The position numbers and the translations under genes were made by a program. Positions 1 through 6,202 of a stretch of 24,404 nt of DNA are shown here, piece after piece; within the stretch, counting starts at the first letter, position 1, and every line of letters starts with the position of its first letter. The notes under the pieces are model-generated. The model was not told the DNA's origin, did not search any database, and saw nothing but the letters and a program-made list of their open reading frames with translations. Source of the DNA: Phycisphaerae bacterium (GTDB lineage Bacteria > Planctomycetota > Phycisphaerae > Tepidisphaerales > Tepidisphaeraceae). The DNA lies in assembly GCA_030448225.1 (NCBI GenBank), contig JAUJNJ010000043.1, positions 17,530 to 41,933 on the forward strand, given 5' to 3'.

Positions 1-1722
1 CGCCGCCTGCGCGTTGCGCTTCTCGAACTCGCTGCACCAGCCCTTCACTTCCAGGTCATTGAAGATCTTGCTCACGACGCGGCGGAGCAGGCCCTTGAGG
101 CTCGCGTTCTCCAGCGCGACGAGCGAGCGGACGGCCTCCTCCTTGTAGCTCTCGTAGAGGCGGTGGCAGCGGTCGTCGGCCTTGAACTCGGCGATGACCT
201 GGCGGACGCGCTCGGGCACGGTCACGCCGTTGTCGCTGGCCGTGCGGCGCCAGACGCTCTCCATGAACGGCTTGGCCTCGCCGCGAGCCCGCTCGTTGGC
301 GACGGCCAGCAGGAGCGAGGGGCGGAGCTTCGTGATGTCGTCGGGCGCGTGACCGCCCTCGGCGAGGTCGTCGAGGTCGTCGTGGATCTGGTAGGCAATC
401 CCCAGGGCCTCGCTGTACTTCGTCAGCACGTCGCGCACGTCCTCGTCGGCGCCGGCGTAGAGCGCGCCGAGGCGCAGCGCGACCTCGAACGCGGGGGCCG
501 TCTTCTTGCGGAAGATGTCGAGCACCTTCAGCGACGACAACGGCTCCGGGTTGCGCACCCAGCAGAGTTCCTCGCCCTGCCCGACCGACAGCGTGCGGTG
601 GCCGAGCGCGGCCACGCGCAGCATCTCGGCCTTGGCCGGCGCGTCGGCGGCGCACTCGGCGAGGAGCCGGTACCCCTCGCCGAGCAGGAAGTCGCCCACG
701 TTGAGCGCGATCGCGACGCCGTGCTCGGCGTGGACGGTCGCCTCGCCGTAGCGGGTGTCGTCCCCGTCCTCGATGTCGTCGTGGATGAGGCTGGCCTTGT
801 GGAAGCACTCGACGGCCAGCGCCACCTTCCGCAGGTCGAGCGGGAGCGGCGCGTCCGGGTCACCCTCGCGCAGCGCCTTGTACGTGCAGACGGTGAGGAA
901 CGGCCGCCACCGCTTGCCGTCCTTGGCGAGCCAGGCCCGGGCGATGTCGTCGGTCTGACCCTGGCTGGGGCCGAGGATCTCGGCGAGCGTATCCGCCGCG
1001 AACCAGCCGTTGATCTCGTCGCGGACGGCGTCGAGGTCCATCCGGCGGGTCTTGTCGTCGCTCGACAGGTGGATGATCTCCCACACCGTGTCGAGGTCGA
1101 CGTTCGTGTCGACGCAGTCGTCCTGCAGCAGCGGGATGGCGATGCCCGGGACGGCCGCCGCCTCCATGAACGGGAACGCCTTCTCCAAAACCGACAGGCA
1201 GCTCACGCCGACGATCGCCTCGATTTTGCCCGTCTCGATGATCGCCATCACGATCGCCGACCCCTCGGCCACGAGCACCGCGTAGCCGAGGCGCTCGGCC
1301 TCGTCCTGCAGATCCTGGATCGAGCAGAGGCCGCACTTCTTGCAGAGCAGGCCGAACTCGTCGAACGGGGCCGGGCACTTCGCCTCGATGCGGAGGCACT
1401 TGGGCATCAGCAGCAGCCGGCGGTCGTAGGGGATGCCGGCCAGTTGCTCGCGCCACGCCTCGTTGTTGATGGTGACGGCGCAGTAGTCGCGGTACTTGAC
1501 GTCGAGCCCGTGCAGTTCCATCAGCCGGTCGGCATGGACGCGCAGCTCGTCGAGCGGCATCGGCGGGACGGGCTTGTAGTCGGCGACGTACTGCCGGATC
1601 AGCCGGCCCACCCGATCGCGCTCGCCGCGGGTCTGCGGGATCGAGTCCTGCGGCGCCCGCATCTGCTGGACGGGCACGGCCTTGGGCAAACTGATCACGG
1701 GCATCTGACTGAGTAACTCCAT
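1..1722 (-). CDS. DUF116 - polyprenyl diphosphate synthase fusion (3' end cut by window)
   Basis: The frame is open for 574 codons and runs off the window start. Residues about 70-220 look like DUF116: a run of cysteines (C109, C116, C127, C130, C133, with the text LLCKKCGLCSIQDL) and a later GVSCL and DDCVDTNVDLD, as expected for a probable iron-sulfur domain of unknown role. Residues about 245-574 are a trans-polyprenyl synthase, which joins isopentenyl diphosphate units to an allylic diphosphate. It has GKRWRP (269-274), the first aspartate motif DDIED (315-319) and the second DDLDD (448-452), so the catalytic set is complete. The ATG at 1722 directly follows an inverted repeat and has no good Shine-Dalgarno sequence. 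An ATG at 1704 lies 12 bases after GGAG and is the alternative. It is the last visible gene of a six-gene row. Chain length and product cannot be read from the sequence. Confidence 0.88.
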   Translation of the reverse strand, partial: MELLSQMPVISLPKAVPVQQMRAPQDSIPQTRGERDRVGRLIRQYVADYKPVPPMPLDELRVHADRLMELHGLDVKYRDYCAVTINNEAWREQLAGIPYDRRLLLMPKCLRIEAKCPAPFDEFGLLCKKCGLCSIQDLQDEAERLGYAVLVAEGSAIVMAIIETGKIEAIVGVSCLSVLEKAFPFMEAAAVPGIAIPLLQDDCVDTNVDLDTVWEIIHLSSDDKTRRMDLDAVRDEINGWFAADTLAEILGPSQGQTDDIARAWLAKDGKRWRPFLTVCTYKALREGDPDAPLPLDLRKVALAVECFHKASLIHDDIEDGDDTRYGEATVHAEHGVAIALNVGDFLLGEGYRLLAECAADAPAKAEMLRVAALGHRTLSVGQGEELCWVRNPEPLSSLKVLDIFRKKTAPAFEVALRLGALYAGADEDVRDVLTKYSEALGIAYQIHDDLDDLAEGGHAPDDITKLRPSLLLAVANERARGEAKPFMESVWRRTASDNGVTVPERVRQVIAEFKADDRCHRLYESYKEEAVRSLVALENASLKGLLRRVVSKIFNDLEVKGWCSEFEKRNAQAA

Positions 1723-1827
1723 AGTTGCTAGTTGCTAGTTGTCTGTTGCTAGTTAAGCGTTACCAAGCCTGTTGGCCCGCCCGCCGCTTTTCTTCCACTA
1801 GCAACTAGCAACTCACAACTAGCAACT
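1723..1827. repeat. Inverted pair of TAGTTGC heptamer arrays
   Basis: The left array (1723-1754) repeats TAGTTGC with variants. The right array (1797-1827) repeats ACTAGCA, its complement. The arms match at 26 of 31 positions and enclose about 42 bases. The pair fills almost the whole gap between the radical SAM stop (1832) and the ATG at 1722, so a transcript of the row could fold into a hairpin ending at that start codon. It resembles in style the heptanucleotide tandem repeats (STRR) known from cyanobacteria. A shared origin is not shown. Confidence 0.85.
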
Positions 1828-1831
1828 CCTG

Positions 1832-3031
1832 CTATCCGTACGCGCCGAAGCCGAAGAACCAGTTCTTCTTCGCGAAGCGGTACATCCAGTGTTCCTCGGG
1901 GATCTCGTTGCCCGGGTTGTGCTGGCTGTTCCGGCCGGTCATCGCCTCGAGCTCGGCCAGGCCGGCGCCCGCCTCGCGGTGGGTGGTGTCCTTCGCGCCG
2001 TGCTTGAGGACGAGGCTCTTCACGAGGTCCGGGCGCTCCATCACGATGCACCCCTGCGTCGCGCCGGCGGAGGCCTTGCGGAAGTCGGCGAGGTACTCGC
2101 TGTCGCGGAACACGTGCATCAGGTTCCGCTCGTCGTGGATCGTCTCCTTCGCGAACTGGATGATCGGGCACGGCTCGATCTCGCCCCACGGGTTGATGTG
2201 GTGGCTGATGCCGGTCGCCATCGGGCACAGCGCCTCGCCCTTGTCGTCCCAGTAGGCGTCGATCACGCCGATCGGCATTTTCCAGCGGAGTTGCACGATG
2301 AACTTCCGCACGCGCAGGATCTGTTCCGGCGTCAGGCAAAGTTCCGTCGACGGGTTGGCGCCGACCGGCCGGTAGGTGTGGTACCAGACGTAGTGCACGC
2401 CGGTGTCGATGAGGCGCTGGACCCACTGCTCGCTCAGCAGGTCGTCGATGTTCGTCTGACAGACGCTCGTGGCGACGCCGGTGATGAGGCGGTGCTTGAG
2501 GCAGTTCTCCAGCCCCGCCATCGTCTTGTTGTAGACGTTGAGCCGGCCCCGCCGCTGGTCGCTCACGACCGTGTTCCACTCGACGATGATGATCGGCGTG
2601 CAGTTGCCGAGGCGTCGCAGTTCTGCGTCGATCTCGTCGTGGATGAGCTGGACGTTGGTGAATATCTCGAAATAGCACTCGGTGAGGAGGCCGAGGATCT
2701 CCAGCAACTGCGGGTGCATGAACGGCTCCCCGCCGAGGATGCCGAAGAAGCTGTTGCCCTGCTCCTTCGCGTCGGTGATGAGGCGGTCCATCTGGTCGGC
2801 GTCGATGTAGTGGCGCGGGCCGTCGACCTTTACCCAGCACCCCTGGCAGCGCAGGTTGCAACTGTTGATGATCGAGATGTAAAGGAACGGCGGGAAGTAC
2901 TCGCCCTTCTTGATCCGCTTCTTGAACCGCTGGACCGACCGCATCCCCTTGTAGCCGAAGTTGTAAGCGAACTTCCACAGAAGCCGCTTGTCGGTCGTGG
3001 CGAGCATTCGTTTGGAAATCTGCAACAGCAT
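1832..3031 (-). CDS. Radical SAM enzyme with SPASM-like C-terminal cysteines
   Basis: This intact 399-residue protein has the radical SAM motif CNLRCQGC (C58, C62, C65), which binds the [4Fe-4S] cluster that cleaves S-adenosylmethionine, and GGEPF (100-104), which contacts the cofactor. Three further cysteines (C269, C288 in IEPCPI, C328) are spaced like a SPASM or twitch auxiliary cluster site, which is an inference. The N-terminus is basic (about residues 1-45) with no clear membrane helix. The ATG at 3031 gives the full family N-terminus. It lies between the ferredoxin-type gene and the DUF116-prenyl synthase, with repeat arrays in both gaps. The substrate is unknown. HpnH of hopanoid synthesis was considered because of the isoprenoid neighbour, but the text around the cluster motif does not match my memory of it. 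Confidence 0.88.
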   Translation of the reverse strand: MLLQISKRMLATTDKRLLWKFAYNFGYKGMRSVQRFKKRIKKGEYFPPFLYISIINSCNLRCQGCWVKVDGPRHYIDADQMDRLITDAKEQGNSFFGILGGEPFMHPQLLEILGLLTECYFEIFTNVQLIHDEIDAELRRLGNCTPIIIVEWNTVVSDQRRGRLNVYNKTMAGLENCLKHRLITGVATSVCQTNIDDLLSEQWVQRLIDTGVHYVWYHTYRPVGANPSTELCLTPEQILRVRKFIVQLRWKMPIGVIDAYWDDKGEALCPMATGISHHINPWGEIEPCPIIQFAKETIHDERNLMHVFRDSEYLADFRKASAGATQGCIVMERPDLVKSLVLKHGAKDTTHREAGAGLAELEAMTGRNSQHNPGNEIPEEHWMYRFAKKNWFFGFGAYG

Positions 3032-3054
3032 TCGGTGCTCGTAAGAAATTTATC

Positions 3055-3199
3055 GAACCACGAAGTCACGAAGACACGAAGCAGTGACGCGCCAGCAAAA
3101 CAGGCTCTTTCAATTCGGTAACATCAATCTGGTTGTTCAACTGCGTGACCAGCGCCAGTTCGTTTGGGCCCGCTTCGTGTCTTCGTGCCTTCGTGGTTC
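3055..3199. repeat. Inverted pair of CACGAAGN octamer arrays
   Basis: The left arm is 3055-3082 and the right arm 3172-3199. Each holds three CACGAAG-type units, and the arms are reverse complements at 27 of 28 positions. They enclose about 89 bases with no gene. The right arm runs into the stop codon of the ferredoxin-type gene (3198-3200), so the repeat supplies part of that TGA. The left arm ends 24 bases before the radical SAM start at 3031. Confidence 0.88.
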
Positions 3200-4034
3200 A
3201 ACTCGCCCGCGAAGCCGCCGCGGCGGCTTTGGCTTTGATCTGTTCGAGCGAGGGGAGCGCGTCCATCACTTCCTGCGGGATGCCGAGGCCCTCCTGGAGC
3301 TTGGCGAGGCAGCGCTTGCGCTCTTCCAGCGCCCGCTTGTCGTCGCGCTCGCGGGCGAAGCGCTGCTTGGCGCCGGCGCTGCGCTCGCGGAGGGCGGCGT
3401 AGATGTCGCCGCCGAGCAGGGCGCTGATGTCGACCTTCATCTTCTCGCGGTGAAGGTCTTCCTCCTTCACCTCGTCGCCGTTGATCGGGCCGCCCTTGTA
3501 CTTCGGGAAGAGGATCGCCACCTCCGGGCAGACGCGCGAGCAGGCCGGGCAGTCGGTCTTGCAGTTGCTCGCCTTGGCGACCTTGATCTTCCCCTCGGGC
3601 GCGCCGTACACGTCGAACAGGCAGAAGCTGAGGCACTGCATGCAGTTCGTGCAGCGGTCGTAGTCGATGACCGGGAACCACGGCTTCCACGTCTTCGGCT
3701 CCGGCGCGCCGTTGCGCAGCTCGGCCCGCAGTCCGACGACGAGGTCCTGCACCTGCGCGGGTGAGAGTCCGTCGATCTGCCGGAAGTGGAGCGTGACGCC
3801 GCCGCCGTCGCCTTCGGCGCGAGCCGGCTTCTCCTCGTCGAACCGGCCGATCACGACGAGGTCGCCGGAGACCGAGGCGTTGACGTGGCCGCCGGGGCGG
3901 ATGCTGGTGACGGCGTACCCCTTGTCGAGCAGGTTGCTGATCACCTGTGCGCGGGCCTCGGCCTCCAGCGCGCGGCTGCCGACGCCTTCGTACAACGCGA
4001 CGCGGAACACGGGGGCGGCTGCGGTGGCGTTCAT
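3198..4034 (-). CDS. Ferredoxin-type protein with two [4Fe-4S] sites
   Basis: This 278-residue protein has an N-terminal part of about 115 residues that I do not recognise. Two cysteine groups follow: C128, C131, C134, C138 (CTNCMQCLSFC) and C158, C162, C165, C169 followed by proline (CKTDCPACSRVCP). Both fit binding of a [4Fe-4S] cluster, so the likely role is electron transfer. The C-terminal 90 residues are charged, probably helical, and end in an alanine-rich tail. The start codon at 4034 overlaps the stop of the upstream gene by ATGA, which indicates translational coupling and makes a paired function likely. An upstream in-frame extension to 4163 lies wholly inside the neighbouring gene and was not used. 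It probably passes electrons to or from the HdrA-like partner or the radical SAM enzyme, which is inference. Confidence 0.85.
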   Translation of the reverse strand: MNATAAAPVFRVALYEGVGSRALEAEARAQVISNLLDKGYAVTSIRPGGHVNASVSGDLVVIGRFDEEKPARAEGDGGGVTLHFRQIDGLSPAQVQDLVVGLRAELRNGAPEPKTWKPWFPVIDYDRCTNCMQCLSFCLFDVYGAPEGKIKVAKASNCKTDCPACSRVCPEVAILFPKYKGGPINGDEVKEEDLHREKMKVDISALLGGDIYAALRERSAGAKQRFARERDDKRALEERKRCLAKLQEGLGIPQEVMDALPSLEQIKAKAAAAASRAS

Positions 4035-4384
4035 CGGTTCACCTCTGCCAGCGGCGCGCCGTTCAGCATGAGTTCCACGACGTCTTCCGGCTGCTGCACC
4101 CGCATGTTGCCGATCTGCACGAGGTCGTCGCTCAGCGTCACGTCGGCGGCATTGAACAGCCACTTCACCGCCCGCGCGTAGCAGGCGGCGATTTTCAGCG
4201 GCCCACCGGCGGCGAGTTGGGCGAGCATCGGGTCACGCTTGGCCGACATCTCGCACAGGTCGGCGACGGCGTCGAACGCCACGCCCGACTCGGCCAGCCG
4301 GCGCAGGACCTCGCGCTTCGTCTCCGGCGGGACGACCTGCGCGTAAGCGCAGTGGCAATAGAGGATTTTCGCGGGTTCGGCCAT
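4031..4384 (-). CDS. Small HdrA N-terminus-like iron-sulfur protein
   Basis: This 117-residue protein has exactly four cysteines: C10 and C12 in ILYCHCAY, C44 in ADLCEM, and C68 in KIAACYARAV. The CHC start and the AAC segment about 55 residues later resemble the N-terminal domain of HdrA, the heterodisulfide reductase flavoprotein, which carries a [4Fe-4S] cluster. Here the domain stands alone, with no FAD-binding part attached and none elsewhere in the window. The start at 4384 was chosen because it begins with the conserved segment. An in-frame extension upstream is arginine-rich and unlike coding sequence. The gene overlaps the next by four bases. The resemblance is from memory of motif spacing, so the family is probable, not certain. 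Confidence 0.75.
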   Translation of the reverse strand: MAEPAKILYCHCAYAQVVPPETKREVLRRLAESGVAFDAVADLCEMSAKRDPMLAQLAAGGPLKIAACYARAVKWLFNAADVTLSDDLVQIGNMRVQQPEDVVELMLNGAPLAEVNR

Positions 4385-4502
4385 GGTCGCAGCTACTTGT
4401 ACACGCGGTCGCGCGGAACGTGCAACCCTTGCCCGGGAACGCCGAGTGTCATGCTCGCCCCGGACTCGCCCCGTGTTCACAACGACATGATTCCATACCT
4501 GC

Positions 4503-5612
4503 TCAGGGCACGATCATCCGGTGCGTCGGGTTCGGCCGGCCGGGGCGGAAGTGCTCGACGTGGTCGAGGTTCATGCCGATGCCGGAGTGGCCTTGCGCGA
4601 AGGCGCTCAGCGCCTCGCCCAGCACGCCGCGCAACACGTCCGGATCGCCCTCGGCCCGCAGGTTGACGATCAACTCGCCCGCCTCCAGTTCCTCCTGAAG
4701 CGAGTGCGACCGCTCGGGCGAGCCGTCGCTGCGGACGAGGTTCAGCACCGCGAGGTCGTTGCCCTCCGCCGGCGTGAGCGTCATCTTCAGGTGCGCGATC
4801 TCCACGCCCTCGCGGCCGAGGCGGTACTGGATCTCGCGGGCGAGGAACGGCAGGACCGCGTTCCCGTCGAACGGGTCGTCCGACTCGACGCGGATCGTCG
4901 CGTTGAGCCACCCGAGCAGCGCCTCGCCCTCGGCGTACTCGTCGTAGTCGATCTCCATCGACGCGCCGGACGCGAGTTCGCCGCGCGCGAGCAGGTCGAA
5001 CCAGTCGTTCAGGCCCGCGCCGTGCCGGGCGGACGCGGACACGATCGTCGCGCGCGGCGCCCGCGCCTCGATCGCCTCGCGCAGCTTCGCCAGCCGGTCG
5101 GCCGAGATCAGGTCCACCTTGTTGATGACGATGACCTCCGCCTCCTCGAGTTGCTTGAGGTAGACGTAGACGACCTTCGGCGAGAACGCCTTGCCCTCTT
5201 CGACGCCGAGCACGCGGAGCGCGCGGATCGGGTCGACGAGCACGGTCAGCGGCGCGACGGTGAAGTCGTCGCCGTAGATCCGCCGAAGCGGGTAGCTCAC
5301 CGTCGCCTTCAGGTCCGTGCAGCTCCCCACCGGCTCGGCGATGAACACGTCGGGCCGCGTCTCCTTCGACAGGGCCGTGGCGGCGTCGACGAGGGAGTTG
5401 AACTTGCAGCAGAAGCACCCGCCGGTGATCTCCTCGACCGGGAAGCCGTGGGCGCCGAGCATGGCGGTATCGACGAGGTTGACGCTCTGGTCGTTCGTGA
5501 TGAGGCCGACCTTCAGGCCCTGCGCCGCCAGGTGCTCGGCGAGCTTGAGGACGGCCGTCGTCTTCCCGGCCCCGAGGAAGCCGCCGATCATGATGTAGCG
5601 TGCTTTGGGCAT
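4503..5612 (-). CDS. CobW/COG0523-family GTPase, putative metal chaperone
   Basis: This intact 369-residue protein has Walker A GFLGAGKTT (11-19), the family metal-binding motif CFCC (C66, C68, C69) and the guanine-specificity motif NKVD (164-167). VFIAEPVGS (89-97) lies in the switch region. The C-terminal half (about 200-369) has the usual variable CobW C-terminal portion. COG0523 proteins hydrolyse GTP to deliver metal ions such as zinc or cobalt to client enzymes, and the client is often encoded nearby. Here the neighbours are a lipoyl carrier and iron-sulfur proteins, so the client could be one of these. The metal cannot be read from the sequence. About 118 bases without a recognisable gene separate it from the HdrA-like gene. 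Confidence 0.9.
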   Translation of the reverse strand: MPKARYIMIGGFLGAGKTTAVLKLAEHLAAQGLKVGLITNDQSVNLVDTAMLGAHGFPVEEITGGCFCCKFNSLVDAATALSKETRPDVFIAEPVGSCTDLKATVSYPLRRIYGDDFTVAPLTVLVDPIRALRVLGVEEGKAFSPKVVYVYLKQLEEAEVIVINKVDLISADRLAKLREAIEARAPRATIVSASARHGAGLNDWFDLLARGELASGASMEIDYDEYAEGEALLGWLNATIRVESDDPFDGNAVLPFLAREIQYRLGREGVEIAHLKMTLTPAEGNDLAVLNLVRSDGSPERSHSLQEELEAGELIVNLRAEGDPDVLRGVLGEALSAFAQGHSGIGMNLDHVEHFRPGRPNPTHRMIVP

Positions 5613-5631
5613 GGGGTCCTGATTCTTAAGG

Positions 5632-5722
5632 CGTAGTGCGTAGTGCGTAGTGCGTAAGAAGATTCGGGATCGCGGTGCGTTTACTTTTTTTACGCACTAC
5701 GCACTACGCACTACGCACTACG
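5632..5722. repeat. Inverted pair of GCGTAGT heptamer arrays
   Basis: The left array (5632-5656) has about three and a half GCGTAGT units. The right array (5691-5722) has about four and a half complementary TACGCAC units. The 25 bases of the left arm pair perfectly with the right arm. The 34-base loop holds a run of T. The pair sits between the GcvH-like stop (5732) and the CobW start (5612). Its unit is a heptamer, as in the array at 1723-1827, but with a different sequence. Confidence 0.9.
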
Positions 5723-5731
5723 AGATTCCCC

Positions 5732-6202
5732 TCACTCCCCGTACTGCCCCTTCATCTTGTCGATCGTGGCGTTCAACACCCCGATATACCCGTCGACGGG
5801 CATGCTGTTGGCCTCGGGCGTGCCGCGGACGAGGTAGAGCCAGCCGTCGCCGTAGGGGTCGGAGTCGACCAGGGCGATCTCGGCGTCGAGCTTGGGGTTG
5901 CCGCGTTCGAAGGTGCCGTCGACGACGGAGTAGACGTCGCTCATGGCCTTGAACCCCTCGACCCACCCGATCGTCTGCCCGACCGTGATCGCCTGCCCGG
6001 CCTTGGCCTCGAACCCGTGCTCGACGATCTCGCCGAGCATGCGGGTGGCGAACTTCGTGAAGCCGACGCGGTAGAGGTCCGCGTCGTCGCCGCCCTGCCG
6101 GGCGAGCCAGAAGTGCGACCGCGTGTAGAGCCGGTCGGCGGGGAGGCGCGTGGTGAAGCGGGAGTTCTTGTACCTGACGACGTCGTCACACGGGTCGGCC
6201 AT
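5732..6202 (-). CDS. GcvH-like lipoyl carrier protein
   Basis: This 156-residue protein is somewhat longer than a usual glycine cleavage H protein (about 125-130). The fold text is clear: SHFWLAR (29-35), YRVGFTKFATRMLGEIVE (44-61), then VEGFKAMSDVYS (81-92), where K85 matches the lysine that carries lipoic acid. The C-terminal WLYLVR fits the H-protein strand. No glycine cleavage P, T or L gene is in the window. Its neighbours are a CobW GTPase, iron-sulfur proteins, a radical SAM enzyme and a prenyl synthase, so it may act as a swinging-arm carrier in another pathway. Lipoyl-binding H-like proteins outside glycine cleavage are known from sulfur-oxidising Hdr systems. The start at 6202 was chosen because the upstream frame is arginine/proline-rich. 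It is the first gene of the row. Confidence 0.88.
   Translation of the reverse strand: MADPCDDVVRYKNSRFTTRLPADRLYTRSHFWLARQGGDDADLYRVGFTKFATRMLGEIVEHGFEAKAGQAITVGQTIGWVEGFKAMSDVYSVVDGTFERGNPKLDAEIALVDSDPYGDGWLYLVRGTPEANSMPVDGYIGVLNATIDKMKGQYGE

Follow-up and report, generated by a model that had tools for sequence, protein, structure and literature searches.

A conserved six-gene row around a DUF116-polyprenyl synthase fusion, probably part of a biosynthetic system for a putative cyclic isoprenoid

A six-gene row in a Phycisphaerae contig

We analyzed a 24,404-nt stretch of DNA from a Phycisphaerae bacterium (contig JAUJNJ010000043.1, positions 17,530 to 41,933; referred to here as the window), whose bases 1-6202 are filled by a row of six genes. 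In reading order, these encode a GcvH-like protein, a CobW-type GTPase, a small HdrA-like protein, a ferredoxin, a radical S-adenosylmethionine (SAM) enzyme and a fusion of a DUF116 domain with a polyprenyl synthase. The best reading of the row, together with partner genes known from related genomes, is a system that makes or modifies a cyclic isoprenoid. The genes are as follows:

5732-6202, minus strand: GcvH-like protein, a predicted lipoyl carrier, 156 amino acids (aa), recognized by PF01597 and an attachment lysine
4503-5612, minus strand: CobW-type GTPase, 369 aa, recognized by PF02492 and a GGCFCC motif in the translation
4031-4384, minus strand: four-cysteine protein, 117 aa, like the N-terminal domain of HdrA
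3198-4034, minus strand: two-cluster ferredoxin with an N-terminal extension, 278 aa, recognized by Fer4_2 and its cysteine pattern
1832-3031, minus strand: radical SAM enzyme, 399 aa, recognized by PF04055 and CxxxCxxC
1-1722, minus strand: DUF116-polyprenyl synthase fusion, 574 aa, recognized by PF01976 and PF00348, with no stop within the window

A preliminary description of this DNA had listed six intact genes on one strand. All six do occur on the minus strand, their frames free of inner stops and their third-position GC content at 0.88-0.97, but intactness could not be upheld for the fusion gene: its 574 codons run to base 1, the edge of the window, and no stop is reached (its relatives are mostly 567-598 aa long). 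Gaps between the genes measure, in reading order, 119, 118, -4, 166 and 109 nt, the negative value being an ATGA overlap between the HdrA-like and ferredoxin genes.

Five of the six proteins exceed the curated cut-off of a Pfam family, the ferredoxin just barely, and none reaches an NCBIfam cut-off. The GcvH-like protein scores 69.4 bits against PF01597, above the Pfam cut-off, and the attachment lysine (KA) is present in all 38 GcvH-like members of the cluster (33 by pattern and five from printed sequences), which predicts a role as lipoyl carrier. It does not qualify as a glycine cleavage H protein by score: both NCBIfam GcvH models are missed (TIGR00527, 71 versus 115.85 bits). The CobW GTPase (PF02492, 90.2 versus 20.7 bits) and the radical SAM enzyme (PF04055, 42.3 versus 29.5 bits) clear their cut-offs, and CxxxCxxC is found in 63 of 70 radical SAM members of the cluster, the remaining seven being fragments that begin at the first bases of a contig. 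The ferredoxin, queried as 3198-4043 and thus three codons longer than from the start at 4034, reaches 24.7 bits where Fer4_2 demands 24.5. These scores and motifs bear out the initial calls of a lipoyl lysine, a CobW protein, a two-cluster ferredoxin, a radical SAM enzyme and a DUF116-prenyl synthase. For the 117-aa HdrA-like protein, no Pfam family matched, Foldseek gave nothing at E ≤ 0.001, and a profile search against PDB sequences returned two matches at chance level; its length and the missing Pfam match rule out a full-length HdrA with a flavin adenine dinucleotide (FAD) domain.

Both halves of the fusion are well matched (PF01976, 127.7 versus 25 bits; PF00348, 142.2 versus 27 bits), and the DUF116 family is present in nine of nine genomes carrying the fusion (hereafter carriers) and in none of the three non-carriers tried. 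In the synthase half, the first aspartate-rich motif, DDxxD with an upstream H/L/N, is present at 111 of 111 loci (at locus L045 by direct reading), and it is preceded by F(-8), A(-5) and S(-4) at 109 of the 111, and at L045 again by direct reading. The second motif (D448, D449, D452) is invariant in a 12-row alignment. We rejected the best NCBIfam name for this half, family 2 encapsulin cargo polyprenyl transferase, on its score (123.1 versus 450 bits). The predicted structure of the DUF116 half, with block values of the predicted local distance difference test of 37-69 over residues 91-230, was too poor for a structure search.

The same two-family fusion has been noted in Pirellula staleyi (Psta_0175) by Makarova et al. 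(2015, PMC5898192), who predicted that DUF116 binds metal and transfers electrons; section 3.6 of that article treats the fusion alone and mentions no neighboring radical SAM, ferredoxin, GcvH, CobW or cyclase genes. We found no paper describing the gene set as a whole in open-licence PubMed Central, while a subscription paper may exist, and the relevant passages of two surveys (PMC8692599, PMC11868695) do not contain this cluster. An Opitutales cluster with a squalene-hopene cyclase in PMC8692599 might be a case of this system. The early statement that no pathway with this set had been described thus holds within open-licence PubMed Central, except that the fusion itself has been in print since 2015.

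Conservation of the row and of its partners off the window

Relatives were collected by using a 12-row fusion alignment to scan GTDB genome contigs, and the best 80 of at least 375 relatives come mainly from Verrucomicrobiota by title, with Planctomycetota and Acidobacteriota besides. Synteny counts rest on the 47 loci that have 8 kb upstream of the fusion; loci are partly non-independent, L058 and L059 being one contig in two bins. All six genes lie on one strand in the order of the window at 21 of these 47 loci, in all three phyla, which answers the early concern that the genes might not be neighbors in related genomes. Near the fusion, the radical SAM gene was found at 28 loci, the ferredoxin at 28, the HdrA-like gene at 27, the GcvH-like gene at 25 and CobW at 23. 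Where the row is split, its genes remain in blocks: among ten places with a split-off radical SAM gene, that gene shares its stretch with the ferredoxin at seven, with the HdrA-like gene at six and also with GcvH at three. At several divergent loci, the ferredoxin, radical SAM and fusion genes persist, mostly alongside one of the off-window partners described below (an alpha/alpha toroid protein or a cyclase), and GcvH and CobW are not nearby. Pairwise distances of the fusion correlate with those of the radical SAM enzyme (r = 0.91), toroid (0.92), cyclase (0.75), CobW (0.72) and GcvH (0.91), values matched by 0 of 500 permutations for each partner, which demonstrates joint inheritance and not function. 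In the HdrA-like gene at L058:3077-3400 and L059:3077-3400, a TAA stands in frame where a tyrosine is nearly invariant; the codon and its position rule out selenocysteine.

Comparison of neighbors across the 111 loci revealed two further partners that often come after the fusion gene: an alpha/alpha toroid protein of ~299 aa at 60 loci and a cyclase of ~610 aa at 45. Cysteine desulfurase-like genes occur at 18 loci, and all three counts are lower bounds because many loci are short. The two loci of highest identity (L001 and L002) belong to Phycisphaerales metagenome-assembled genomes, of which the first reaches into the start of the toroid and the second covers both toroid and cyclase, the latter truncated where the contig ends. 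PF13243 (1e-32) places the cyclase in the squalene-hopene-cyclase superfamily. Its closest solved relative is squalene-hopene cyclase (4.9e-34), whose DVDDTA aligns with the DxDD motif of the neighbor, and the acid motif of the neighbor reads DxDDT in 42 of 45 copies and DADDS in one, two being truncated. It falls far short of the squalene-hopene cyclase equivalog (cyclase of L005, TIGR01507, 96.6 versus 431.1 bits). Among solved structures, the toroid comes closest to geranylgeranyltransferase type II beta chains (3.8e-11), followed by cyclase-type toroids (9.7e-10). A small Fic/Doc-type gene of the death-on-curing family often lies between fusion and toroid in Verrucomicrobiota (7 of 111 loci, including L015, L016 and L036), and one desulfurase-like gene (L005:4625-5776) narrowly passes NCBIfam DndA (484.3 versus 480 bits).

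The fusion was found in 12 of 96 evenly drawn Verrucomicrobiota genomes, 35 of 149 sampled Planctomycetota and two of 149 sampled Acidobacteriota, such that the system spreads beyond planctomycetes into several bacterial phyla. Partner tests were run on 80 of the 96 Verrucomicrobiota (12 carriers and 68 non-carriers). The radical SAM enzyme, the ferredoxin and the cyclase each occur in 12 of 12 carriers (in genome G093 the cyclase as two pieces only) and in 0 of 68 non-carriers, apart from one weak radical SAM match (1.2e-26). Four families, the fusion included, are therefore found together in each of these 12 carriers. Mainly because the families are either all present or all absent at the thresholds applied, we read the genes as one system.

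The GcvH-like protein behaves differently. An orthologue (at least 177 bits) is present in four of the 12 Verrucomicrobiota carriers and missing in eight, other GcvH matches in the same 40-genome search scoring at most 86 bits and being taken as ordinary H protein. The lipoyl carrier is thus an accessory, dispensable part of the system. Haem-copper oxidase (PF00115) is found in 21 of 23 carriers with the orthologue versus three of 11 without it (35 carriers were picked, G014 was unclassifiable and left out, and the absence of GcvH from G166, G186 and G224 was judged at the locus only). At seven of the 111 loci (L083, L084, L086, L088, L090, L091 and L099), mostly without GcvH, the cluster is adjoined by parts of a recurring module that combines propellers of the PQQ/NHL type with two ferredoxins, one of exported type and the other a NapH/NosR-like membrane protein. 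At a threshold of 1e-30, 10 of the 12 carriers in Verrucomicrobiota have this membrane protein (the query's own genome being among them), as do one of 56 non-carriers and only three of 12 further carriers. Its scores lie far under the cut-offs of NapH (43.1 versus 213.05 bits) and NosR (44.4 versus 1000 bits). Carriers without GcvH thus often have this membrane iron-sulfur (Fe-S) protein instead, the correlations being among related genomes. One genome without the fusion, G099, has a membrane protein of this kind at 6.1e-59 (C77:103639-104736), so the module is not strictly tied to the cluster.

A putative pathway to a cyclic isoprenoid

Synteny and co-occurrence show that the arrangement of the row exceeds chance, and they make it well supported that the six genes and their off-window partners form one system, in agreement with the single pathway first proposed. 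The row would supply most of a conserved biosynthetic system whose product is a putative cyclic isoprenoid modified through radical SAM chemistry, a reading to which we assign a probability of roughly 0.6. Of the two functions originally suggested, modification of an isoprenoid thereby gains support as the likely business of the system, whose constant partners are ferredoxin, radical SAM enzyme, fusion and class II-type cyclase, while a lipoyl-bound C1 or sulfur step loses its place at the center with the absence of GcvH from most Verrucomicrobiota carriers.

As a first step, the synthase half of the fusion would produce an all-trans prenyl diphosphate, perhaps of ~C25; this estimate follows from Ala at -5 and Phe at -8 of the first aspartate motif, positions that we take to set prenyl chain length. 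The squalene-hopene-cyclase-like enzyme and its toroid partner may then cyclize the prenyl diphosphate by protonation. Next, the radical SAM enzyme would modify the chain or the ring, with electrons from the two-cluster ferredoxin, possibly aided by the HdrA-like protein and the cysteine-rich DUF116 domain. In one group of carriers, most of them with haem-copper oxidases, the lipoyl carrier, the CobW GTPase and sometimes a cysteine desulfurase could join as redox or sulfur carrier and for cofactor supply; in other carriers the NapH/NosR-like membrane Fe-S module is often present. If such an isoprenoid pathway exists, soil and water bacteria contain a sizeable lipid or cofactor that has escaped notice so far, DUF116 gains a concrete role, and a lipoyl carrier becomes linked to terpenoid genes. 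The missing compound could be sought in named carrier strains, Chthoniobacter flavus Ellin428 and Sulfidibacter corallicola M133.

Gene clusters for terpenoids that include a class II cyclase are already known. PDB 7xq4 is presumably a bacterial class II terpene cyclase with a squalene-hopene-cyclase-like fold that acts on a prenyl diphosphate rather than on squalene; the cyclase of our system shares the fold, and we assume a likeness in substrate, although it matches 7xq4 (8.1e-15) more weakly than squalene-hopene cyclase. We know of no prenyl-diphosphate class II cyclase with such radical SAM and Fe-S partners.

Several points weigh against this reading. The presence/absence profile covers one phylum and 12 carriers and is uncorrected for kinship, and 40 of 51 carriers do possess a squalene/phytoene synthase. 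None of the other five genes is nearby at 17 of the 47 loci; of these, 12 are in genomes searched for the radical SAM enzyme, and 10 of the 12 have the gene elsewhere. The enzyme was detected in 36 of 40 fusion-bearing genomes, leaving four without a match, some perhaps through assembly gaps, and in three of the ten split-off places it stands without other row genes. Toroid and cyclase were seen at only 60 and 45 of the 111 loci, many of them short, and the HdrA-like resemblance scores under the safe level of the search tool. The toroid and cyclase genes are expected left of base 1, so we infer their presence in the window's own organism, as we do every chemical step and the product.

The product could instead be a membrane redox lipid, a cyclized and radically modified prenyl electron carrier that would shuttle between the Fe-S proteins and the membrane module in several phyla, in the manner of quinone or methanophenazine. 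We consider this unlikely, while acknowledging that module parts adjoin the cluster at seven of 111 loci and that the NapH/NosR-like protein separates Verrucomicrobiota carriers (10 of 12) from non-carriers (one of 56). That separation does not extend to the further carriers (three of 12), G099 has the membrane protein without the cluster, the NapH and NosR scores are far under their cut-offs, and among the recurring neighbors no head-group gene was recognized.

In hopanoid synthesis, squalene-hopene cyclase and the radical SAM enzyme HpnH work on one isoprenoid, and the present system likewise pairs a class II-type cyclase with a radical SAM enzyme. A variant of that pathway, in which squalene is the substrate of the cyclase and the radical SAM enzyme has an HpnH-like role, would fit the superfamily of the cyclase, the squalene/phytoene synthase of most carriers and a weak match to the HpnH model. 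It seems improbable to us, since that match (TIGR03470, 38.9 versus 225.05 bits), like that of the cyclase, is far from its equivalog cut-off and excludes HpnH identity, and since the constant prenyl-synthase fusion is left unexplained, hopanoid synthesis having neither this fusion nor the Fe-S partners. Moreover, the squalene/phytoene synthase family (PF00494) was not found in 11 of 51 carriers, including the complete Sulfidibacter corallicola chromosome (G032), which argues that this is not simply hopanoid synthesis.

A lipoyl-centered sulfur or C1 pathway related to sHdr would account for a GcvH-like carrier with an invariant lysine adjoining an HdrA-like domain, and for the cysteine desulfurase-like genes at 18 of 111 loci. 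The sHdr system of sulfur oxidation, with its lipoate-binding protein LbpA, likewise sets a lipoyl carrier beside Hdr-related Fe-S and radical SAM genes in the part of the account that concerns us (PMC6067878); compared with that part, our row has a stand-alone HdrA-like domain, a single radical SAM enzyme and an optional carrier. Among the eight window proteins scanned, we found no HdrB-type (CCG) domain or lipoate ligase, which rejects sHdr as the identity of the row, and no P or T protein, which rejects glycine cleavage. The row thus does not coincide with either of the known pathways first named as possible identities. With the carrier missing in eight of 12 Verrucomicrobiota carriers and the terpene cyclase and prenyl synthase left without a role, we regard such a pathway as very improbable. 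Bacterial protein prenylation, with the fusion making the prenyl donor and the toroid transferring it, is scarcely credible despite the geranylgeranyltransferase-like toroid, as cyclase-type toroids match nearly as well and the DLYYT motif has a tyrosine at what we take to be the position of a zinc-ligand histidine.

Inverted repeats in the spacers of the row

Of the inverted repeats listed for the whole window, the top three lie in spacers of the row (1722-1827, 3055-3199 and 5624-5723); two consist of tandem heptamers whose units differ (TAGTTGC and GCGTAGT), and one of CACGAAG-type units. A search of 1.98 Mb of loci together with the window gave no exact inverted tandem pairs at periods 5, 6 and 8-11 and four at period 7, two of them in the window and each 92 nt long. 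The spacer repeats are possibly a class of repeat element or terminators.

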